DNA of 26,250 nucleotides, from the IMG/VR virus record IMGVR_UViG_3300030380_001117, positions 1-26,250 of that record, one strand, 5' to 3'. Below are positions 3,022-25,294 of the stretch, piece after piece. The translations under genes were made by a program, and so were the position numbers. Origin of the DNA: a virus. The first letter of the stretch is position 1. Every line of letters starts with the position of its first letter. The notes beneath the pieces are model-generated. The model did no database searches. It was not told the DNA's origin and worked only from the letters and a program-made list of their open reading frames with translations.

Positions 3022-3056
3022 ATATAATAGATTAAATTAATATTTATTTGATTTTT
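3022..3056 (-). promoter_or_regulatory. Late-promoter-like motif, copy 3 (coiled-coil/protease genes)
   Basis: On the minus strand AAAAATCAAATAAATA (3041-3056) is followed by nine bases and TCTATTATAT (3022-3031). The motif overlaps the last codon of the tape-measure gene and ends 3 bases before the ATG at 3018. If it is a promoter, the transcript would be leaderless or nearly so. The 16-mer is identical to the one at 1530-1545. Confidence 0.5.
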
Positions 3057-4602
3057 AAATTGTAGCTCTTCTTCTAATTGCTGCCAGCTTATCTTGGTTG
3101 TTCGTAACATCATCAGAAACAACATACGCTTGGATAGGCTCAGGAGCTACTCCACCTGATAGATCAAAAGAACCTCCCAACATTTGTGGTGCTGGTGTTT
3201 GTGGGTCTGCTGGTACTGCTCCACCTCCACCTCCTCCAGGTACAGGTGTTTTCATTATTTGCTGAACATTTGCCAAACCTGTTGCAATAGCTGCTGCTGC
3301 TGCTGCAAATCTTGCTGGTCCCACTAATGTAGGGTCTTTTAAAACTGCATTAGCTGCTGCATAAGTGTCTATGATAGCTTGTGCTAGTGCTAATTCTTTA
3401 TTTTCTCCTGCTAATGTTCCTAAAGCTCCTGTAAGGGATGAATAAGCAGTCAACTGCTGATTAACTCCTTCTGCTACAATTTGTTCTTTTTGTTTTTCAT
3501 ATTGTTTAGTTATAGCCGTTATGTCAATGTTTGCTTTTCTAGCCATATCTACTTTTAACTTATAAGCAGCTTCTAACTCTTCTAATTCTCTTTCCGTTCC
3601 TGATAGTCCTTCAGCTCTTAATTCATTTTGTGCTTCTAATAATTCTTTATTTAAAGCTACCTCATTAGTCTTTTGCTCTGATAGTTGACCAGTAATTGTT
3701 TCTTCAAGCTCTAGTTGTCTTATTTGAATTTCTTTTAAAGCAATATTATCTTCATCTCTTTTGGAGATATTAAACTTTAATTGAGCCGCCGCTTCAAGCT
3801 TTTTCAATTCTTTTCTTTGTAATTCTTGTTGCTCTTCTAATACTTTATTCAAATCTTTGTTAGCTTTTATTCTGTCTGCAAATGTTTTAGTTTCATCATC
3901 TCTTATTTGCCTAAGCACTTCAGCTTCTTTTAATTTTTCTGCATTAAGTTTAGCAAATTCTACCTGTGAGAACGCTGCTGCTTTTCCTGAATCTGTAACT
4001 GCTTTTGCTTCATCTACTGTTGCTTTTGTATAATTTACTGTTGCCACAACAGCCTTTAAATAACTGTTTTCAACATTTGTAATTACATCAACTGCTTTTA
4101 ATTGAGCCTTAGTTGCTGTTTCCATAGCTTTTACAAATTCACCATCAAACAAGTGATTAACAGCTTCTCCTATCAACCCAAAGACTTCTAATAAAGTATT
4201 AAATCTGTCAATAAGTCCTTGCTGTATAGTGTCCCCTAAATCCTTAATTTTTTGCTGTGGATTCTCAAATAATTCTTTAAACCAATCCATTGCTTGTCCT
4301 ACTGTATCTCCGATTACATCAAATAGATCATTAAATACTATATCTAGTGCAGTCATGGTGGTATTAAAAGCATCTATTACTTTTTGGTTTTTAGAAAACA
4401 CCTCCATTAATTTTGCAACTAAAGCCACAATTAATCCAATACCTAAAGATTTTAATGCAGTTCCAATTCCTTTAATTGTTGACCCTAAAGTTCTAAAACC
4501 CATCCCAGCTTGATCTGTTGCTTTATCTAAGTTCTTAACATCTTTAGTGACGCTTTTTATATTCGTTTTTACTTCTGCTTCTAATATTGTTTTATCTGCC
4601 AT
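3055..4602 (-). CDS. Tail tape measure protein
   Basis: A 515-residue protein with the usual tape-measure build. The N-terminal part has the Asn/Lys-rich TNIKSVTKDVKNLDKATDQA followed by an amphipathic to hydrophobic stretch (TIKGIGTALKSLGIGLIVAL, about residues 42-61). A long alpha-helical, coiled-coil-rich body spans about 190-400. Then comes an Ala-rich hydrophobic stretch (ARFAAAAAAIATGLANVQQI), a poly-Gly hinge, and a conserved-looking basic end (NNQDKLAAIRRRATI). Tape-measure proteins set tail length and line the tail tube. At the commonly quoted 0.15 nm per residue this one would give a short tail of roughly 75 nm. No sheath gene is visible, so a non-contractile tail is more likely. 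It begins 11 bp after the fibre-like gene. Confidence 0.85.
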   Translation of the reverse strand: MADKTILEAEVKTNIKSVTKDVKNLDKATDQAGMGFRTLGSTIKGIGTALKSLGIGLIVALVAKLMEVFSKNQKVIDAFNTTMTALDIVFNDLFDVIGDTVGQAMDWFKELFENPQQKIKDLGDTIQQGLIDRFNTLLEVFGLIGEAVNHLFDGEFVKAMETATKAQLKAVDVITNVENSYLKAVVATVNYTKATVDEAKAVTDSGKAAAFSQVEFAKLNAEKLKEAEVLRQIRDDETKTFADRIKANKDLNKVLEEQQELQRKELKKLEAAAQLKFNISKRDEDNIALKEIQIRQLELEETITGQLSEQKTNEVALNKELLEAQNELRAEGLSGTERELEELEAAYKLKVDMARKANIDITAITKQYEKQKEQIVAEGVNQQLTAYSSLTGALGTLAGENKELALAQAIIDTYAAANAVLKDPTLVGPARFAAAAAAIATGLANVQQIMKTPVPGGGGGGAVPADPQTPAPQMLGGSFDLSGGVAPEPIQAYVVSDDVTNNQDKLAAIRRRATI

Positions 4603-11260: not shown

Positions 11261-11349
11261 TATAATCTTACTCTAATAGTTGGTGGTATTATTTGTATTT
11301 CTATTTTGCCTATTTTTATTATATTTAATTTCTTTAATTTTTTCCACAT
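11260..11349 (-). CDS. Basic 29-residue ORF, TAATG-coupled on both sides
   Basis: ATG 11347-11349 to TAA 11260-11262; the product begins MWKKLKKLNIIKIGKIEIQI and ends in Arg/Leu. It is strongly basic and without a clear membrane span. The ATG overlaps the stop of the 182-residue upstream gene, and its stop overlaps the ATG of the membrane protein downstream, both as TAATG. Such exact coupling at both ends argues for a translated ORF or at least a translational bridge. The length is short enough for chance; no family recognised. Confidence 0.4.
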   Translation of the reverse strand: MWKKLKKLNIIKIGKIEIQIIPPTIRVRL

Positions 11350-11897
11350 TAGTAACCTGCTCCAGTATTATCCATTGGAACTTCACAAGCATCAAAGTCA
11401 TACATAACCTTTATTCCTATCTGAAATGTCCACCCACATAGTAGGTTGTCAAATCTTTCTGTGAATGGCTCTATTGTAAACTGATCTTCTGTAAAATATA
11501 AACCATGATTAATATCATTCACTCCTGATAACGATTGTCTTAAACTGTGTCTTATTGAGCCAATAAAATCAGTACATATCTCTAATGTTTGATTGAATAC
11601 TTCTTGCTCATTGTTTTTCATGTTAACTAACTTAGTTAAATCAGCATGTTGTTTTGTTTGCCAATCATTCTTTTCAGATACTAAATCACAAACAAATAAT
11701 TGATAGTTGTATATTAGTTCACTATCTCCTGTTTCTACATTAACTGGATTGATGTGTAATAGAGGCATCTTCTCTAACTTTTCGAGATTAATATCGTATA
11801 TATCTCCAACTGATACTGTTGATAGCTGCTTATGATACTGCCCTAATCTTATTAGGAAGTTTGTTACATTGTTATATGTCTTATTGCTTACTGGCAT
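11349..11897 (-). CDS. Conserved tail/neck protein, possible tail terminator
   Basis: A 182-residue protein. It starts with PVSNKTYNNVTNFLIRLGQY, has a helical middle (HADLTKLVNMKNNEQEVFNQ, LEICTDFIGSIRHSLRQSLS) and ends with FDNLLCGWTFQIGIKVMYDF and an acidic tail. The pattern 'helices, then a WTF..i.v...yd..C strand' resembles proteins seen near tail genes of flavobacterial phages, where a tail-terminator or tube-completion role is plausible. The ATG lies inside the last 17 bases of the frameshifted tail chaperone frame, which ties translation of the two together. Function is inferred. Confidence 0.45.
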   Translation of the reverse strand: MPVSNKTYNNVTNFLIRLGQYHKQLSTVSVGDIYDINLEKLEKMPLLHINPVNVETGDSELIYNYQLFVCDLVSEKNDWQTKQHADLTKLVNMKNNEQEVFNQTLEICTDFIGSIRHSLRQSLSGVNDINHGLYFTEDQFTIEPFTERFDNLLCGWTFQIGIKVMYDFDACEVPMDNTGAGY

Positions 11898-12659
11898 GTT
11901 TTACTTTATTTTGTGTACTTAAATCTGTTTCATAACTTAACCAAGTTAGACATTCTAACAAGTTAAGATTTGTTATCCTTTCTAAATTTACTATCTCTCC
12001 ATTTGTCAATCTATACATCACTCCGAACCAACCCCACTTTTCTGCAAAAGATTCTGAGGCAATTGCTTCTCCATTTCCTTCAGCCGATGGGTCAAAAATG
12101 ATGGCAAAGTCATTAGCAATTCTTTCGCGAAACTGTAAAAAAAAACCAGTGCATTTTGCACTTGCTCTGCTGACATCTTCTTCATCTCCTCTGCCCTTAT
12201 ACTTATATTTCCATCATAAGCTTCAATAGTATAAATATTATTTTTCTTTTCAACTATTGGTCTGTATAAAACAGCACATAATTCAGGTAAGTGGTTTTGA
12301 ATATCATTCTTAATGAATGTCTCTATATCTGCATACTCACCAAGAGTAATGGAATCCAAATCAGGATGAAAACCATACTCCTTACCCTCTACCTCTATAA
12401 TTCTCCTTAGAGAACTATCTTGCTTATGTTGTAGCTCACTTATCTTTCCCAAGATTGTAGCTATATCTTTAATCTCTAGCTTATCAATTAGCTTTTTAGG
12501 AATATCAGATAATGCTGCTATCGTTTCCTTTGCTTCCTTGCTCTTGTCAAGTTTGTGAAACTTAACTAACTTTAACCATGTTTCCAGGTTAACCTCACTC
12601 CAGCTACTAATTAATTTAAACTCTTTAGTCTTTCCTCCCTCCTTAATTTTTACCTTCAT
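11881..12659 (-). CDS. Tail assembly chaperone, long form made by -1 frameshift (gpGT-like, 259 residues)
   Basis: Residues 1-174 are read in the frame of the 213-residue protein. After GTT TTT TTT (12138-12146) a -1 slip would continue as TTA CAG TTT CGC and stay open for 85 codons to TAA 11881-11883. The extension begins LQFRERIANDFAIIFDPSAE and contains ESFAEKWGWFGVMYRLTNGE, then NLNLLECLTWLSYETD. The F.EKWGW block followed by a helical region resembles the second ('T') part of tail chaperones in related phages, and this frame has no ATG until 12018. In lambda the G and GT proteins bind the tape measure during tail assembly. If the slip did not happen, an ATG at 12018 (overlapping the stop as TGATG) could give only the last 45 residues. 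Confidence 0.7.
12018..12659 (-). CDS. Tail assembly chaperone, short form (gpG-like, 213 residues)
   Basis: Begins MKVKIKEGGKTKEFKLISSW and contains LETWLKLVKFHKLDKSKEAK, LSDIPKKLIDKLEIKDIATI, YGFHPDLDSITLGEYADIET, CAVLYRPIVEKKNNIYTIEA and SAEQVQNALVFFYSFAKELL. I recognise this as a conserved family next to tail genes in flavobacterial phages. It is about the length expected of a gpG-type chaperone and is followed by an overlapping ORF in the -1 frame, as in lambda and many siphoviruses. It starts directly after a late-promoter-like motif, downstream of TerL. The short form would be the main product and the frameshifted form the minor one; the ratio cannot be read from sequence. Confidence 0.7.
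   Translation of the reverse strand: MKVKIKEGGKTKEFKLISSWSEVNLETWLKLVKFHKLDKSKEAKETIAALSDIPKKLIDKLEIKDIATILGKISELQHKQDSSLRRIIEVEGKEYGFHPDLDSITLGEYADIETFIKNDIQNHLPELCAVLYRPIVEKKNNIYTIEAYDGNISIRAEEMKKMSAEQVQNALVFFYSFAKELLMTLPSFLTHRLKEMEKQLPQNLLQKSGVGSE
12138..12144 (-). promoter_or_regulatory. Slippery heptamer T TTT TTT for -1 frameshift
   Basis: The minus strand has a run of nine T at 12137-12145, read in frame as GTT TTT TTT TAC. Positions 12144-12138 form a perfect X XXY YYZ heptamer with both codons UUU (Phe), so both tRNAs can re-pair after a -1 slip. The -1 frame downstream is open and encodes a plausible tail-chaperone extension. A homopolymer indel in the assembly would look the same and is the main alternative. 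Confidence 0.65.
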
Positions 12660-12746: not shown

Positions 12747-12783
12747 AAAAGGGGGGTTAGTCACTTAGGCTGCCCTCTTTTTT
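12747..12783 (-). terminator. Possible terminator after terL
   Basis: Just past the TerL stop the minus strand reads AAAAAGAGGG, about 16 bases, then CCCCCCTTTT. The flanking A- and T-tracts and the G/C runs can pair with one mismatch, giving a stem of about nine pairs followed by U residues. It is the only GC-rich spot in the 122-bp gap before the tail operon. The large loop and the mismatch make it weak; partial termination or an RNA stability element is equally possible. Confidence 0.3.
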
Positions 12784-13984
12784 ATTGTACAAAATATCTG
12801 CCTGCATTAGGATTATCTAAGTGATATATAACATTATATCTAACACCATCTATTGCATGATTAAAAGAATCATGGTATAGTTTTGACCCCTTGTCTGCGT
12901 ATACATAATTGTTTAATTCTTTAGCTATATTAGTAGATTCAGGAGTTACAATTAGCTCATAGTCCTGCATTCTAGTTATTCCGCTTTCAATAGTTCCTTT
13001 TTTTACTGGTCTTATGTTTACTCCTAAGTGCTTCAGGTCTGCTATCAGTCTAGGTTCTGCTGAATCAGCTATAATTAACTTGTTACCTACTTTCTCTAAT
13101 ACTATTTGAGCTAACTCCTGTGACTTCATTCCGTTTTTATAGATATGTTCTTTTAAATATATCTTCTGTTTCTTTTTATCAATAGCCACCTCTGTTAAAC
13201 TATCAGGATCAACACTAAATCCAAAGTCCATTCCACAAGATGTTTGCAGACCATCAGGATTAAATTCACCAATACTCCAATTCTCAAACACCACACCTTC
13301 TGCTTTATCTAACCATCCACCCATTATTTTGTGCTGATACTTCTTAAAATTCTTGTGCTGTATAGTTTTAATACGCTCTAAGAAGCTCTCTGAGAGGTTT
13401 TCTCTATTGTCTAGGTATGTACTGTGTATATAGCATACATTGTCTTTAACGCCATTAAAACCAGCTTCTACGCCTTTGTCTTGAAAGAATCTTTTGTATA
13501 TCCAATGTTCTTTAGTTACAGGATTTAATATAAGTATGATTCTGTTTTGTATTTCTTTTTCTCTAATACTTAAATCAATAGTGTCAAATATATCTTCATC
13601 AATTAATTCTTCAGCTTCATCCAACACCCAGTTAGATACTCCTGTTAAAGATTTAAGACTAGCTGTTTGGTTTCCTGCTGATGTCTTTATACCTCTAAAC
13701 AGTATGTCGCTTTTGTTTTTTAAGTTTACTACTTCTGCTTTGTTTACGCTAAATATATTATCATACCCTAATAGTCCTATCTTTTCTAAGAACTCAGGAA
13801 TGATTGACAGGTGTGCTGAGGTCATAGTGTATCTCGTAAAGAGTACTCTAATCCCTCTAGTCATAGTTAATAATGTAAGGAATACTGTTACCGCAAAAGA
13901 TTTTCCTGATCCTCTACCACCTGTTATTATAAAATACCTGGCATTAGAATCAAATAGTGGATTATATTTCTTACTCAGTTTCAG
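12782..13984 (-). CDS. terL: Terminase large subunit, non-ATG (CTG) start
   Basis: The packaging motor ATPase and nuclease. The first ATG in frame (13864) would omit the Walker A motif GGRGSGKS, which lies upstream. The frame is closed by TAG just before ACA CTG AAA CTG AGT AAG, so the start is most likely CTG 13982-13984, giving MKLSKKYNPLFDSNARYFII and a 400-residue protein. Walker A is then at 22-29 and Walker B (NWVLDEAEEL) has D122-E123. Nuclease motifs follow: SCGMDFGFSVDPDSL, LIIADSAEPRLIADLKHLG and NHAIDGVRYNV. The start lies inside the 3' end of terS (14-base overlap, +1 relative frame), so translation is probably coupled. No ATG or GTG is available in that stretch. Length and motifs fit a complete TerL. 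Confidence 0.92.
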   Translation of the reverse strand: MKLSKKYNPLFDSNARYFIITGGRGSGKSFAVTVFLTLLTMTRGIRVLFTRYTMTSAHLSIIPEFLEKIGLLGYDNIFSVNKAEVVNLKNKSDILFRGIKTSAGNQTASLKSLTGVSNWVLDEAEELIDEDIFDTIDLSIREKEIQNRIILILNPVTKEHWIYKRFFQDKGVEAGFNGVKDNVCYIHSTYLDNRENLSESFLERIKTIQHKNFKKYQHKIMGGWLDKAEGVVFENWSIGEFNPDGLQTSCGMDFGFSVDPDSLTEVAIDKKKQKIYLKEHIYKNGMKSQELAQIVLEKVGNKLIIADSAEPRLIADLKHLGVNIRPVKKGTIESGITRMQDYELIVTPESTNIAKELNNYVYADKGSKLYHDSFNHAIDGVRYNVIYHLDNPNAGRYFVQ

Positions 13985-16314: not shown

Positions 16315-16879
16315 TTAATTCTTTTCTTAATAATGTTCTTACTTTATCTATTGTTGTAAATAAACTATTTCTACTTATCTTAGTTTTTGCAGCAAGACTA
16401 TCTAATGTATTGCCTTCATAATAATAGAGCTTAAATAATTCCCTATCATACCAGTAAATATCATCTAAAGCTTGATCAATTTTCTCTAGCTTTTTCCATT
16501 GTTTAGCTACTTCTTTTTCCGCAATATTAGATATATGTTTATTATTAGCAATGTTATGTGCCACATCATCATTACTAAAAGTTGTGCTGCAATTGTAACT
16601 AAAGCTGTCAATATGTGTGTAATACTTTTCATACTTATAATAAAAATTACTTCTTGTACTTGTTAATGCTCTTCTTAATGCAACTGCTCCATATCTTGTT
16701 ATTCCATCTATTCCATCTTTATCATATATTGCTTTCAGGGTAGCAGGATTCATTTGTAAAAAATATAGCATTAACTCTTGTACAGCTTCATGTATTTTGT
16801 TTTCATCAGTTGTAATACCATAAGCCATTGTTCTAAATTTATCTGTTAGTTTTGATATTTCCTGATAAATCTTATTCAT
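16304..16879 (-). CDS. Sigma-factor-like protein (candidate late regulator)
   Basis: A 191-residue protein. Residues about 25-45 (ENKIHEAVQELMLYFLQMNP) resemble the helix of sigma region 2. The C-terminal part, YWYDRELFKLYYYEGNTLDS followed by LAAKTKISRNSLFTTIDKVR (about 142-181), has the order of sigma region 4: a helix ending in 'Y.eG.tl..LA..t.is...l......a...L'. Two regions separated by a variable linker in under 200 residues is the size of an ECF-type sigma or of the sigma-like proteins of Bacteroidota phages. Being in the early operon and preceding four copies of a novel late motif, it is the obvious candidate to read that motif. It could instead be a HTH regulator. It overlaps the upstream 118-residue gene by 8 bases. 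Confidence 0.6.
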   Translation of the reverse strand: MNKIYQEISKLTDKFRTMAYGITTDENKIHEAVQELMLYFLQMNPATLKAIYDKDGIDGITRYGAVALRRALTSTRSNFYYKYEKYYTHIDSFSYNCSTTFSNDDVAHNIANNKHISNIAEKEVAKQWKKLEKIDQALDDIYWYDRELFKLYYYEGNTLDSLAAKTKISRNSLFTTIDKVRTLLRKELNEN

Positions 16880-17228
16880 TTTCAGGTGTAATAAAATCTA
16901 ACTTTTCTACTGTTTGGTGTAACATCTCTTGTAATACTACTTTGTATGCCCTTATGACTGCTGCATTTTTTTTTGTCTCTAATCCTGCAAAGAAACCATT
17001 TGTAGCAACTGATAAATTTATAGGTATAATCATTATCCAATCATAAAAATTATTCTCTCTAACACCTTCTCCATAACCATTGCTATATTCAATTATAACT
17101 TGCACTACATCTAAATAATTATTATACTTGACTTGCGAACTAACATCTTTACTAAATTCTAAACACATTGTCATAAAAGTTTCAACTATTGACCTGTGTT
17201 CTTGACTTGAATAAATTGGAGATGTCAT
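16872..17228 (-). CDS. Unknown protein, 118 residues
   Basis: Begins MTSPIYSSQEHRSIVETFMT. Mostly helical, with a hydrophobic stretch (DWIMIIPINLSVATNGFFAG, about 63-82) too polar for a confident membrane span, and a C-terminal helix (AVIRAYKVVLQEMLHQTVEK). No motif recognised. It sits between ninG and the sigma-like gene and overlaps the latter by 8 bases, so the two may be functionally linked. Start at ATG 17228 is the only good one. Confidence 0.45.
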   Translation of the reverse strand: MTSPIYSSQEHRSIVETFMTMCLEFSKDVSSQVKYNNYLDVVQVIIEYSNGYGEGVRENNFYDWIMIIPINLSVATNGFFAGLETKKNAAVIRAYKVVLQEMLHQTVEKLDFITPENE

Positions 17229-23260: not shown

Positions 23261-25294
23261 TTATCTTGGTTTTAAAAATCCTTTGTTCTTCATTCTTTTT
23301 GGTGGTTTTGCTACTAAAGGACTATTTTTTTTAGCAGTAAATCCTTCTGATTTTGCTTTTGTGTAGCCAATTAAATCTGCATCTTCTATTTTTGTTGTTC
23401 TTGATTCTCCTATTGTAGTTTTAAAGATTTGTCTAAGCCAAAAATGCTGACAATTACCACCTCCTTTGTATTTGAATATATCATATTTCAAAGCACCTTT
23501 CGGTCCCCAACCTATATTTCTTTTTTGATTTTTAGAATAATAGTAATCATTCACAACCTTATTGCTCATAGCCTGTATGTCCTCTTTTCTGTACAACTTT
23601 TTAGCCCCCATCATTTGTCTGCAAAAGCGTCTTTTCTGTCCTGTTTTATTTACTAAAAAATCATCTTCTGTGTACACATATCTTACTCTAAAATAATCAT
23701 AGCTTTTTTTAGATATTCCATCTTGCTCAGATTTTCTACCAGGCAAAGCCCTCCCTGTTGATGCTAACTCTATTTTCTCACCAGCTACATCATTTAAAAC
23801 TGCTTCAAAGTCAAAATCTAAATGCTCATCTCCTACCTTTTCTTCTTCTATTAATTCATAACCTTCAGGAATATCCTCTCCATACTCCTCAATAAACTTA
23901 GCAAGTTCTGTTGCTGCTGAATGCCCCTCACAAGCCATATAAACCGTTCTACCCTCATATTCATGCTCGTGATACCCTGAACACCCAACAGACTTTGCAT
24001 GCTCCTCAGCCTCTTCTATAGTGCTAAAAACAGGCTGTCCATCTATCATTCCTACTTTTGCGAATCTAACCTCTTCTTCTGCTGTTTTTTCATCATCTGC
24101 TAAAGGCTTCAATCCAAGAGATTCTCTTATTTCGTCTTGTGTCATTACATCTCTAACAGTTGCAGAATCAAATTGTACTGTTATTGGCTTTAATTGTACA
24201 AAATCTACCTCTAAATCCATATTGTTTACTGAGAATATAGTTTGTAGCGTATCTAATATATTTAATTGGAATGGTCTTACAACAGTATTTAAATAGAAAT
24301 TAGCTGCATTCGTCAGCTCATCTGTATTTGATGAAAAGCCATTCGTACTATCAATACCCATAAGTGTTTTAGATGTTACACGATGGGCTGTGACTATGTT
24401 TTGAACTAACAACTCTTGGAGGGCTAAATACTGTTTGTCAGCATCAGAAACACTAATTGGTGTAACTTCAGGAGTTCTTGTTCTATCATCACTAAATGTT
24501 AGTATAAACTTACCGCTATTTTTAGCCCCCGTAAATTTCTCTGTAAGACTTCTTTCTATTTGGAATCTCTCTTCTTGTGTTGGCACTCCATTGGCAAAAG
24601 AAATAAAATATGATCCACTAAATCCATTCTCTATATTTGCTAGATGAAACTCAGCAACTCGCTGGTCAACGAGAGCCCAATTACAGCCAGCTAAATAATC
24701 AGGCGTGTGGTATATGTCCATATTAGGAGAATAAGAACCTGAATATAGCAACTGACTACCTGAAGTTCTATCATTAGCATTAAATGCTGCAATAGGGTAA
24801 GGTTTGTGTGTTCTTGTGTTTGACCAATCTGCACTAATATAATAAGTATCTACCTTGCCCATTTCGTTAGGTCTACCTGCTCTAACTCTTTCCACAGGTA
24901 CATGGTAAATTTCTACAATCTCTGTACGCTCTCTATTCCATATAACATGTAACGCATAAGCCCCTTGAAGTTTAAAATCAAAAGCTATTTTTTTAATTAC
25001 TTGATGTAATGATTCTTTACTATTTGCATGTCTCATGAACTTTTTAAGTCTCACATATGCATCTAAATTAGTATCTACATCATCTACAATTAAATCTTCT
25101 CCCGCAATCATTTCTGCTGTACTATTAATAATAGCAGCATGTGTTGAGCTGTTGTAGTATAAATCAATAAGAAACTGTGGATATAGGTTTCTCCAGTCGT
25201 CAGTGCCGTACTCGATATAATCTCTACCACGAACTTCTTGAATTATTGGAGCTGTTTGAGTTTCTAAATTTATACTTAAAATATTATTTTCCAT
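23261..25294 (-). CDS. Portal protein with long Cys/His-containing C-terminal extension
   Basis: A 677-residue protein. Residues 1-400 are the portal: IEYGTDDWRNLYPQFLIDLY, IAFDFKLQGAYALHVIWNRE, then the region AHRVTSKTLMGIDSTNGFSS and NFYLNTVVRPFQLNILDTLQ. Portal subunits form the ring through which DNA enters and leaves the head. The extension is unusual. At 431-460 there is a small motif (HAKSVGCSGYHEHEYEGRTV, with C438, H442, H444, C455, H458). At about 530-625 there is a second domain with FCRQMMGAKKLYRKEDIQAM (C558) and GNCQHFWLRQIFKTT (C615, H617). The end is basic (KPPKRMKNKGFLKPR). I recall these pieces from Bacteroidota phage head proteins, where they may serve in maturation or scaffolding; no activity is known to me. 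Confidence 0.85.
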   Translation of the reverse strand: MENNILSINLETQTAPIIQEVRGRDYIEYGTDDWRNLYPQFLIDLYYNSSTHAAIINSTAEMIAGEDLIVDDVDTNLDAYVRLKKFMRHANSKESLHQVIKKIAFDFKLQGAYALHVIWNRERTEIVEIYHVPVERVRAGRPNEMGKVDTYYISADWSNTRTHKPYPIAAFNANDRTSGSQLLYSGSYSPNMDIYHTPDYLAGCNWALVDQRVAEFHLANIENGFSGSYFISFANGVPTQEERFQIERSLTEKFTGAKNSGKFILTFSDDRTRTPEVTPISVSDADKQYLALQELLVQNIVTAHRVTSKTLMGIDSTNGFSSNTDELTNAANFYLNTVVRPFQLNILDTLQTIFSVNNMDLEVDFVQLKPITVQFDSATVRDVMTQDEIRESLGLKPLADDEKTAEEEVRFAKVGMIDGQPVFSTIEEAEEHAKSVGCSGYHEHEYEGRTVYMACEGHSAATELAKFIEEYGEDIPEGYELIEEEKVGDEHLDFDFEAVLNDVAGEKIELASTGRALPGRKSEQDGISKKSYDYFRVRYVYTEDDFLVNKTGQKRRFCRQMMGAKKLYRKEDIQAMSNKVVNDYYYSKNQKRNIGWGPKGALKYDIFKYKGGGNCQHFWLRQIFKTTIGESRTTKIEDADLIGYTKAKSEGFTAKKNSPLVAKPPKRMKNKGFLKPR

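Follow-up and report, generated by a model that had tools for sequence, protein, structure and literature searches.

The gene downstream of TerL and its two reading frames

The window, i.e. the whole stretch of 26,250 nucleotides of marine phage DNA analysed here (IMG/VR record IMGVR_UViG_3300030380_001117, positions 1 to 26,250), carries a gene on its minus strand in which a run of nine T lies between two open frames in a -1 relation. The features of the locus are listed below.

12782-13984, minus strand: large terminase (TerL) gene, directly upstream (Terminase_3, E 6.8e-28)
12659-12018, minus strand: frame-0 open reading frame of 213 aa (ORF list), encoding the gpG-like short product, made up of the N domain and a brief tail in frame 0
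12145-12137, minus strand: uninterrupted T9 tract, the site of the frame transition (sequence)
12144-12138, minus strand: heptamer T_TTT_TTT, in phase with frame 0 (sequence)
11881-12138, minus strand: -1-frame extension of 85 codons and a stop, encoding the C domain of the 259-aa fusion, the gpGT-like long product (translation)
11349-11897, minus strand: the 182-aa gene that follows, which overlaps the last part of the -1 frame (ORF list)
3055-4602, minus strand: gene for the tape measure protein, distant from the frameshift locus (E 8.5e-12 to tape measure PHROGs)

At the run, frame 0 reads ...GCA CTG GTT TTT TTT TAC AGT TTC... and ends with a stop codon at 12020-12018. Past the slip, the sequence of the -1 frame is TTA CAG TTT CGC..., corresponding to LQFRERIANDFAIIF...ESFAEKWGWFGVMY...KHASKQ, and is closed by a stop at 11883-11881. 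The -1 fusion is 259 aa long, with its last 85 residues derived from the -1 frame. The initial annotation had described the T9 run with its in-phase heptamer, the 213-residue frame ending at 12018, the -1 frame open for 85 codons to 11881, the presence of ESFAEKWGWF in this extension and a first -1-frame ATG at 12018, which overlaps the frame-0 stop (TGATG), and all of these were read correctly from the sequence. The open -1 frame is longer than expected by chance, since none of the 34 other genes of the window exceeded 39 by a similar measure, and its conservation (see below) departs from chance most clearly. The run itself is unremarkable in an AT-rich window of 32% GC, where four T9 or A9 runs were found for 6.5 expected; it is thus no evidence alone, and a comparative test was needed. 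An A9 run on the sense strand at 16966-16974 lies within a 118-aa gene (16872-17228), and such runs are rare in the coding sequence of these phages.

Two other genes of the window deserve mention. The Walker A motif of TerL (GGRGSGKS) is encoded in frame on the minus strand 5' of the first ATG (13864), within window positions 13984-13864, and the true start is probably a CTG at 13984, which overlaps the end of TerS and is conserved in the clade of the window; in several distant relatives, the codon near this position is ATG, GTG or TTG. The portal protein (23261-25294) is extended at its C-terminus by about 280 residues, among which is a DUF3721-like stretch just below the Pfam cut-off.

Conservation of the run and of the -1 relation

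Separate scans of IMG/VR, one for the frame-0 protein and one for the -1 extension, returned 80 relatives each, and in all of them the two parts are in a -1 relation and are separated by T9 or T10. The only annotated phages matched in these initial scans were the Nonlabens isolates P12024S and P12024L, which show about 26-29% identity in the N domain and also have T9 and the -1 relation. In the P12024S record, the two halves are entered as two hypothetical proteins, the C part being annotated as its own 55-aa gene. The set was enlarged by three further scans started from divergent members, and the loci were defined with HMMs for both domains. Both domains were carried by 337 loci, corresponding to 32 clusters at 60% identity, 17 at 50% and 7 at 40%; two additional loci, which ended at a contig edge before the junction, stand outside this set. 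The -1 relation was found in all 337 two-domain loci, with T9 in 306 and T10 in 31, the run being in phase 1 in 313 and in phase 0 in 24, and T_TTT_TTT was in the correct phase in every locus. Not one of them had a shorter run or merged frames. On a tree of 72 representatives, about 10 changes of run length or phase were counted, at least 4 of them forced by well-supported branches, and every change kept at least nine T and the -1 relation without ever merging the frames, for which a single added T would suffice. A scan of bacterial genomes returned two contigs only, both in metagenome-assembled genomes (MAGs), and no prophage evidence. These contigs (L222 and L223) are in MAGs labelled Euryarchaeota and Pseudooceanicola and are probably mis-binned phage contigs.

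Codon-position diversity, computed within the clade of the window, shows at the sequence level that the -1 frame is under selection. In codons 31-45 past the run, diversity at the three positions of the -1 frame was 0.108, 0.069 and 0.410, i.e. mostly at the third position. Values for the first eight codons past the run were 0.351, 0.151 and 0.354, both frames being constrained there.

Homopolymers are prone to error and more distant relatives have one ORF, so that a continuous reading frame with one T missing by a sequencing or assembly error was considered. This explanation is extremely improbable: the -1 relation is shared by all 337 loci, which were recovered from many different metagenomes, T9 and T10 are always compensated, the separately sequenced isolates P12024S and P12024L agree and the frames are merged in no locus. 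Assembly error was ruled out by these 337 concordant loci. Alternatively, reinitiation at ATG 12018 might produce the C domain as a small protein of its own, without any fusion, as could be suggested by the TGATG overlap in the window and by the separate annotation of the C part in P12024S. Nevertheless, conservation of the -1 frame begins at the slip site, far upstream of this ATG, the Met is absent in distant relatives and the two domains form one ORF in other phages. The overlap of stop and ATG is not conserved either, since the length of the frame-0 tail varies, with stops 18 to 86 codons beyond the run. Reinitiation was rejected as the main route, and we consider it very improbable.

The single-ORF form was recognized through structure models, for which P12024S was excluded from the alignments and the N and C domains were modelled separately with AlphaFold2. 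The N-domain model had a mean pLDDT of 85 and a pTM of 0.72, and the C-domain model was weaker (pLDDT 69). Fold searches with the two models converged on the same single BFVD proteins (A0A6J5N0W0, A0A6J5MY57, A0A6J5SVK3 and A0A6J5N3F3), the matches of the C domain being weak (E 0.05 to 1.4). A further N-domain match, gp10 of Flavobacterium phage 6H, pointed to isolates with the single-ORF form. Both domains are joined in one ORF of 259-301 aa in Flavobacterium phages 2A, FPSV-F7 and laban6-1, Cellulophaga phage Ingeline_1, Polaribacter phage Leef_1, Bacteroides phage BT-TP2 and a Microcystis phage. A profile of the trans-frame fusion aligned with the single-ORF proteins over 238 columns (E 4.5e-16), compared with E values of 4e-11 and 1.3e-5 for the halves alone. 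None of the single-ORF phages has T9 at the junction, and wherever Phe-Phe is retained there, it is encoded by T6 or by an interrupted run. Among the sequences examined, T9 thus accompanies split frames and the single frame occurs without it. The union of both domains in one ORF without T9 in distant phages indicates that the trans-frame fusion is a real protein architecture. In phage 6H itself (L341, 10352-10380), the junction is altered and the N and C domains do not share a frame, unlike the near-identical phage 2A and its kin, which have one ORF; this split may be either a sequencing error or a real loss.

The programmed -1 frame transition proposed in the initial annotation is strongly supported by the 337 loci. 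That annotation had called for conservation of the T run and of both frames in related phages, and both are kept throughout. Searching the relatives for a continuous ORF made by T10, or for loss of the -1 frame in close relatives, returned no case of either. Taken together, the comparative evidence indicates that -1 recoding is very probably maintained at this gene.

RNA polymerase or ribosome at the T run

Tail-chaperone frameshifting is textbook ribosomal recoding and, to our knowledge, the cases studied by experiment are all ribosomal. The initial annotation proposed a frameshift of the lambda type; its -1 recoding is borne out at all 337 loci, but its ribosomal mechanism is less secure, since the invariable occurrence of nine or more uninterrupted T fits polymerase slippage at least equally well. 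In the scheme that we consider most likely, RNA polymerase would slip on T9 and add one extra U in a share of the transcripts, ordinary translation of which would run into the C domain. Ribosomal -1 slippage at U_UUU_UUU may contribute some of the fusion. Two proteins with a common N domain would result, the frame-0 product of 213 aa and the fusion of 259 aa.

Four points (run length, the T8 to C change, RNA structure and run avoidance) favour a length-dependent homopolymer and thereby RNA polymerase, for which nine A or T are a common and efficient slippage site in bacteria (PMC5009743, PMC1088944). All the runs have at least nine T, although T7 or T8 could contain the in-phase heptamer. At phase-1 T9 sites, a change of T8 to C would be silent in both frames, and the resulting U_UUU_UUC is efficient as a ribosomal motif in E. 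coli (PMC4066793); the change was never seen (P ~7e-5, calculated from codon usage with 32 clusters that are partly interdependent and so not fully independent observations). At this Phe codon, TTC does occur in 11 loci from several lineages, and the run is there extended upstream to T10, as exemplified by L155 compared with its 95% identical relative L115. Pseudoknot-free folding of 30-45 nt upstream and 40-80 nt downstream of the run gave no signal of a local stimulatory RNA structure (mean z near 0 over 44 clusters), and an AGTGCA/TGCACT hairpin located just 5' of the run in the window is absent from the relatives. In the other genes of these phages, runs of at least nine A were observed 5 times for 33 expected; avoidance of runs of at least nine T was weak (1 observed, 3.2 expected), and no phase-specific avoidance of 7-mers was found in these genes.

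Slippage of the ribosome, as in lambda G-T, would involve faithful transcripts and a slip of tandem tRNA-Phe one base back on U_UUU_UUU, the fusion being made by a constant proportion of the ribosomes. This explanation, which we regard as quite possible though not the preferred one, agrees with the in-phase T_TTT_TTT of all 337 loci, with the lambda gpG/gpGT precedent (PMC5009743), with the 6-7% frameshifting of HK97-like tail-chaperone genes in reporters (PMC3711429) and with the efficiency of U_UUU_UUU as a -1 motif in E. coli (PMC4066793). Acting alone, however, it would leave unexplained the absence of runs below nine, the restriction of U_UUU_UUC to loci where the run is re-extended to T10 and the absence of other permitted heptamer types (0 occurrences). 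A stimulatory structure was not found around the run, though lambda-type sites may need none. On the other side, the case for the polymerase is weakened in that the nine T can be partly explained by a hydrophobic-Phe-Phe-aromatic stretch together with the heptamer, and run avoidance may also have other causes such as replication slippage. Both kinds of slippage may operate together. From the sequence patterns, we modestly favour recoding with polymerase slippage as its main step.

Predicted function and comparison with known systems

The product is probably a tail assembly chaperone functioning like lambda gpG/gpGT, an assignment by analysis that concerns function alone and does not make it a proven member of the family. 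Many copies of the short form would bind the tape measure protein, and recruitment of tail tube subunits would fall to the less abundant long form. A short product and a -1 fusion sharing their N part, kept in 337 of 337 loci, form the signature layout of gpG/gpGT. Matches to known chaperones were weak (phrog_4976, E 0.028; a BFVD chaperone, E 0.078; Phage_TAC_7 in 4 of 72 relatives, best E 0.016), and the chaperone role is therefore based on layout and context. No significant Pfam or NCBIfam family was found for either half, no homologue of solved structure was found by sequence and none of the fold matches listed for the PDB was convincing. The N half matches phrog_32199 (E 8e-13), of unannotated function, and the counterpart of the C half is phrog_38404; neither half is assigned a function in PHROGs, Pfam or NCBIfam. 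As to the tail assembly chaperone named in the initial annotation, layout and context thus speak for it and the sequence and fold matches speak for it weakly.

The same annotation had rightly placed the gene after TerL and 7.4 kb from the tape measure gene. It follows TerL in the relatives too, where the order TerS-TerL-frameshift gene-182-aa gene-Neck1-like gene is retained, the 182-aa gene being matched in 38 of 44 clusters. In Ingeline_1, the two-domain gene is located three genes before the tape measure gene. The hosts are probably Bacteroidetes, judging from those of isolated relatives.

We see an even chance that, in a broad group of aquatic phages that probably infect Bacteroidetes, slippage of RNA polymerase on the conserved T9/T10 rather than the ribosome determines how much of each chaperone form is made, the more distant phages encoding the fused form alone. 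Polymerase slippage may then have taken over a task elsewhere done by ribosomal recoding; no described case of a tail chaperone with transcriptional slippage was found in the open-access literature. The invariant run of at least nine T would extend tail-chaperone recoding to a family without clear similarity to known chaperones, in a large phage group previously unannotated for such frameshifting. The phrog_32199 and phrog_38404 families are accordingly halves of one protein, and the C domain is overlooked or wrongly placed by gene callers in these phage genomes. The isolates P12024S and P12024L, together with natural single-ORF counterparts, make the mechanism directly testable.

Among known systems, lambda gpG/gpGT has likewise a short product and a -1 fusion with a C-terminal domain, made near the 3' end of a gene of the virion structural cluster. 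It differs in its slippery sequence (G_GGA_AAG instead of T9/T10), in its location, as the window gene adjoins TerL rather than the tape measure gene, and in its slip, which is ribosomal in lambda and here a predicted mechanism only; no sequence family match between the two is detectable. Thermus dnaX and Shigella mxiE and spa13, which rely on polymerase slippage at A9/T9, likewise have nine or more A or T without interruption and yield extended and short products from one gene, whereas the present case is a phage tail gene known from sequence comparison alone. The phrog_25418 proteins (Flavobacterium 2A, laban6-1 and Cellulophaga Ingeline_1) are homologous in both the N and the C domain, keep their order and are likewise of unannotated function, but are encoded by one continuous ORF of 259-301 aa in which T9 is absent. 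Finally, phrog_32199 and phrog_38404 (gp38 and gp39 of P12024S) are direct homologues of the two halves with the same T9 and -1 relation, but are recorded as two separate proteins of unannotated function, their pairing by frameshift having gone unrecognised.
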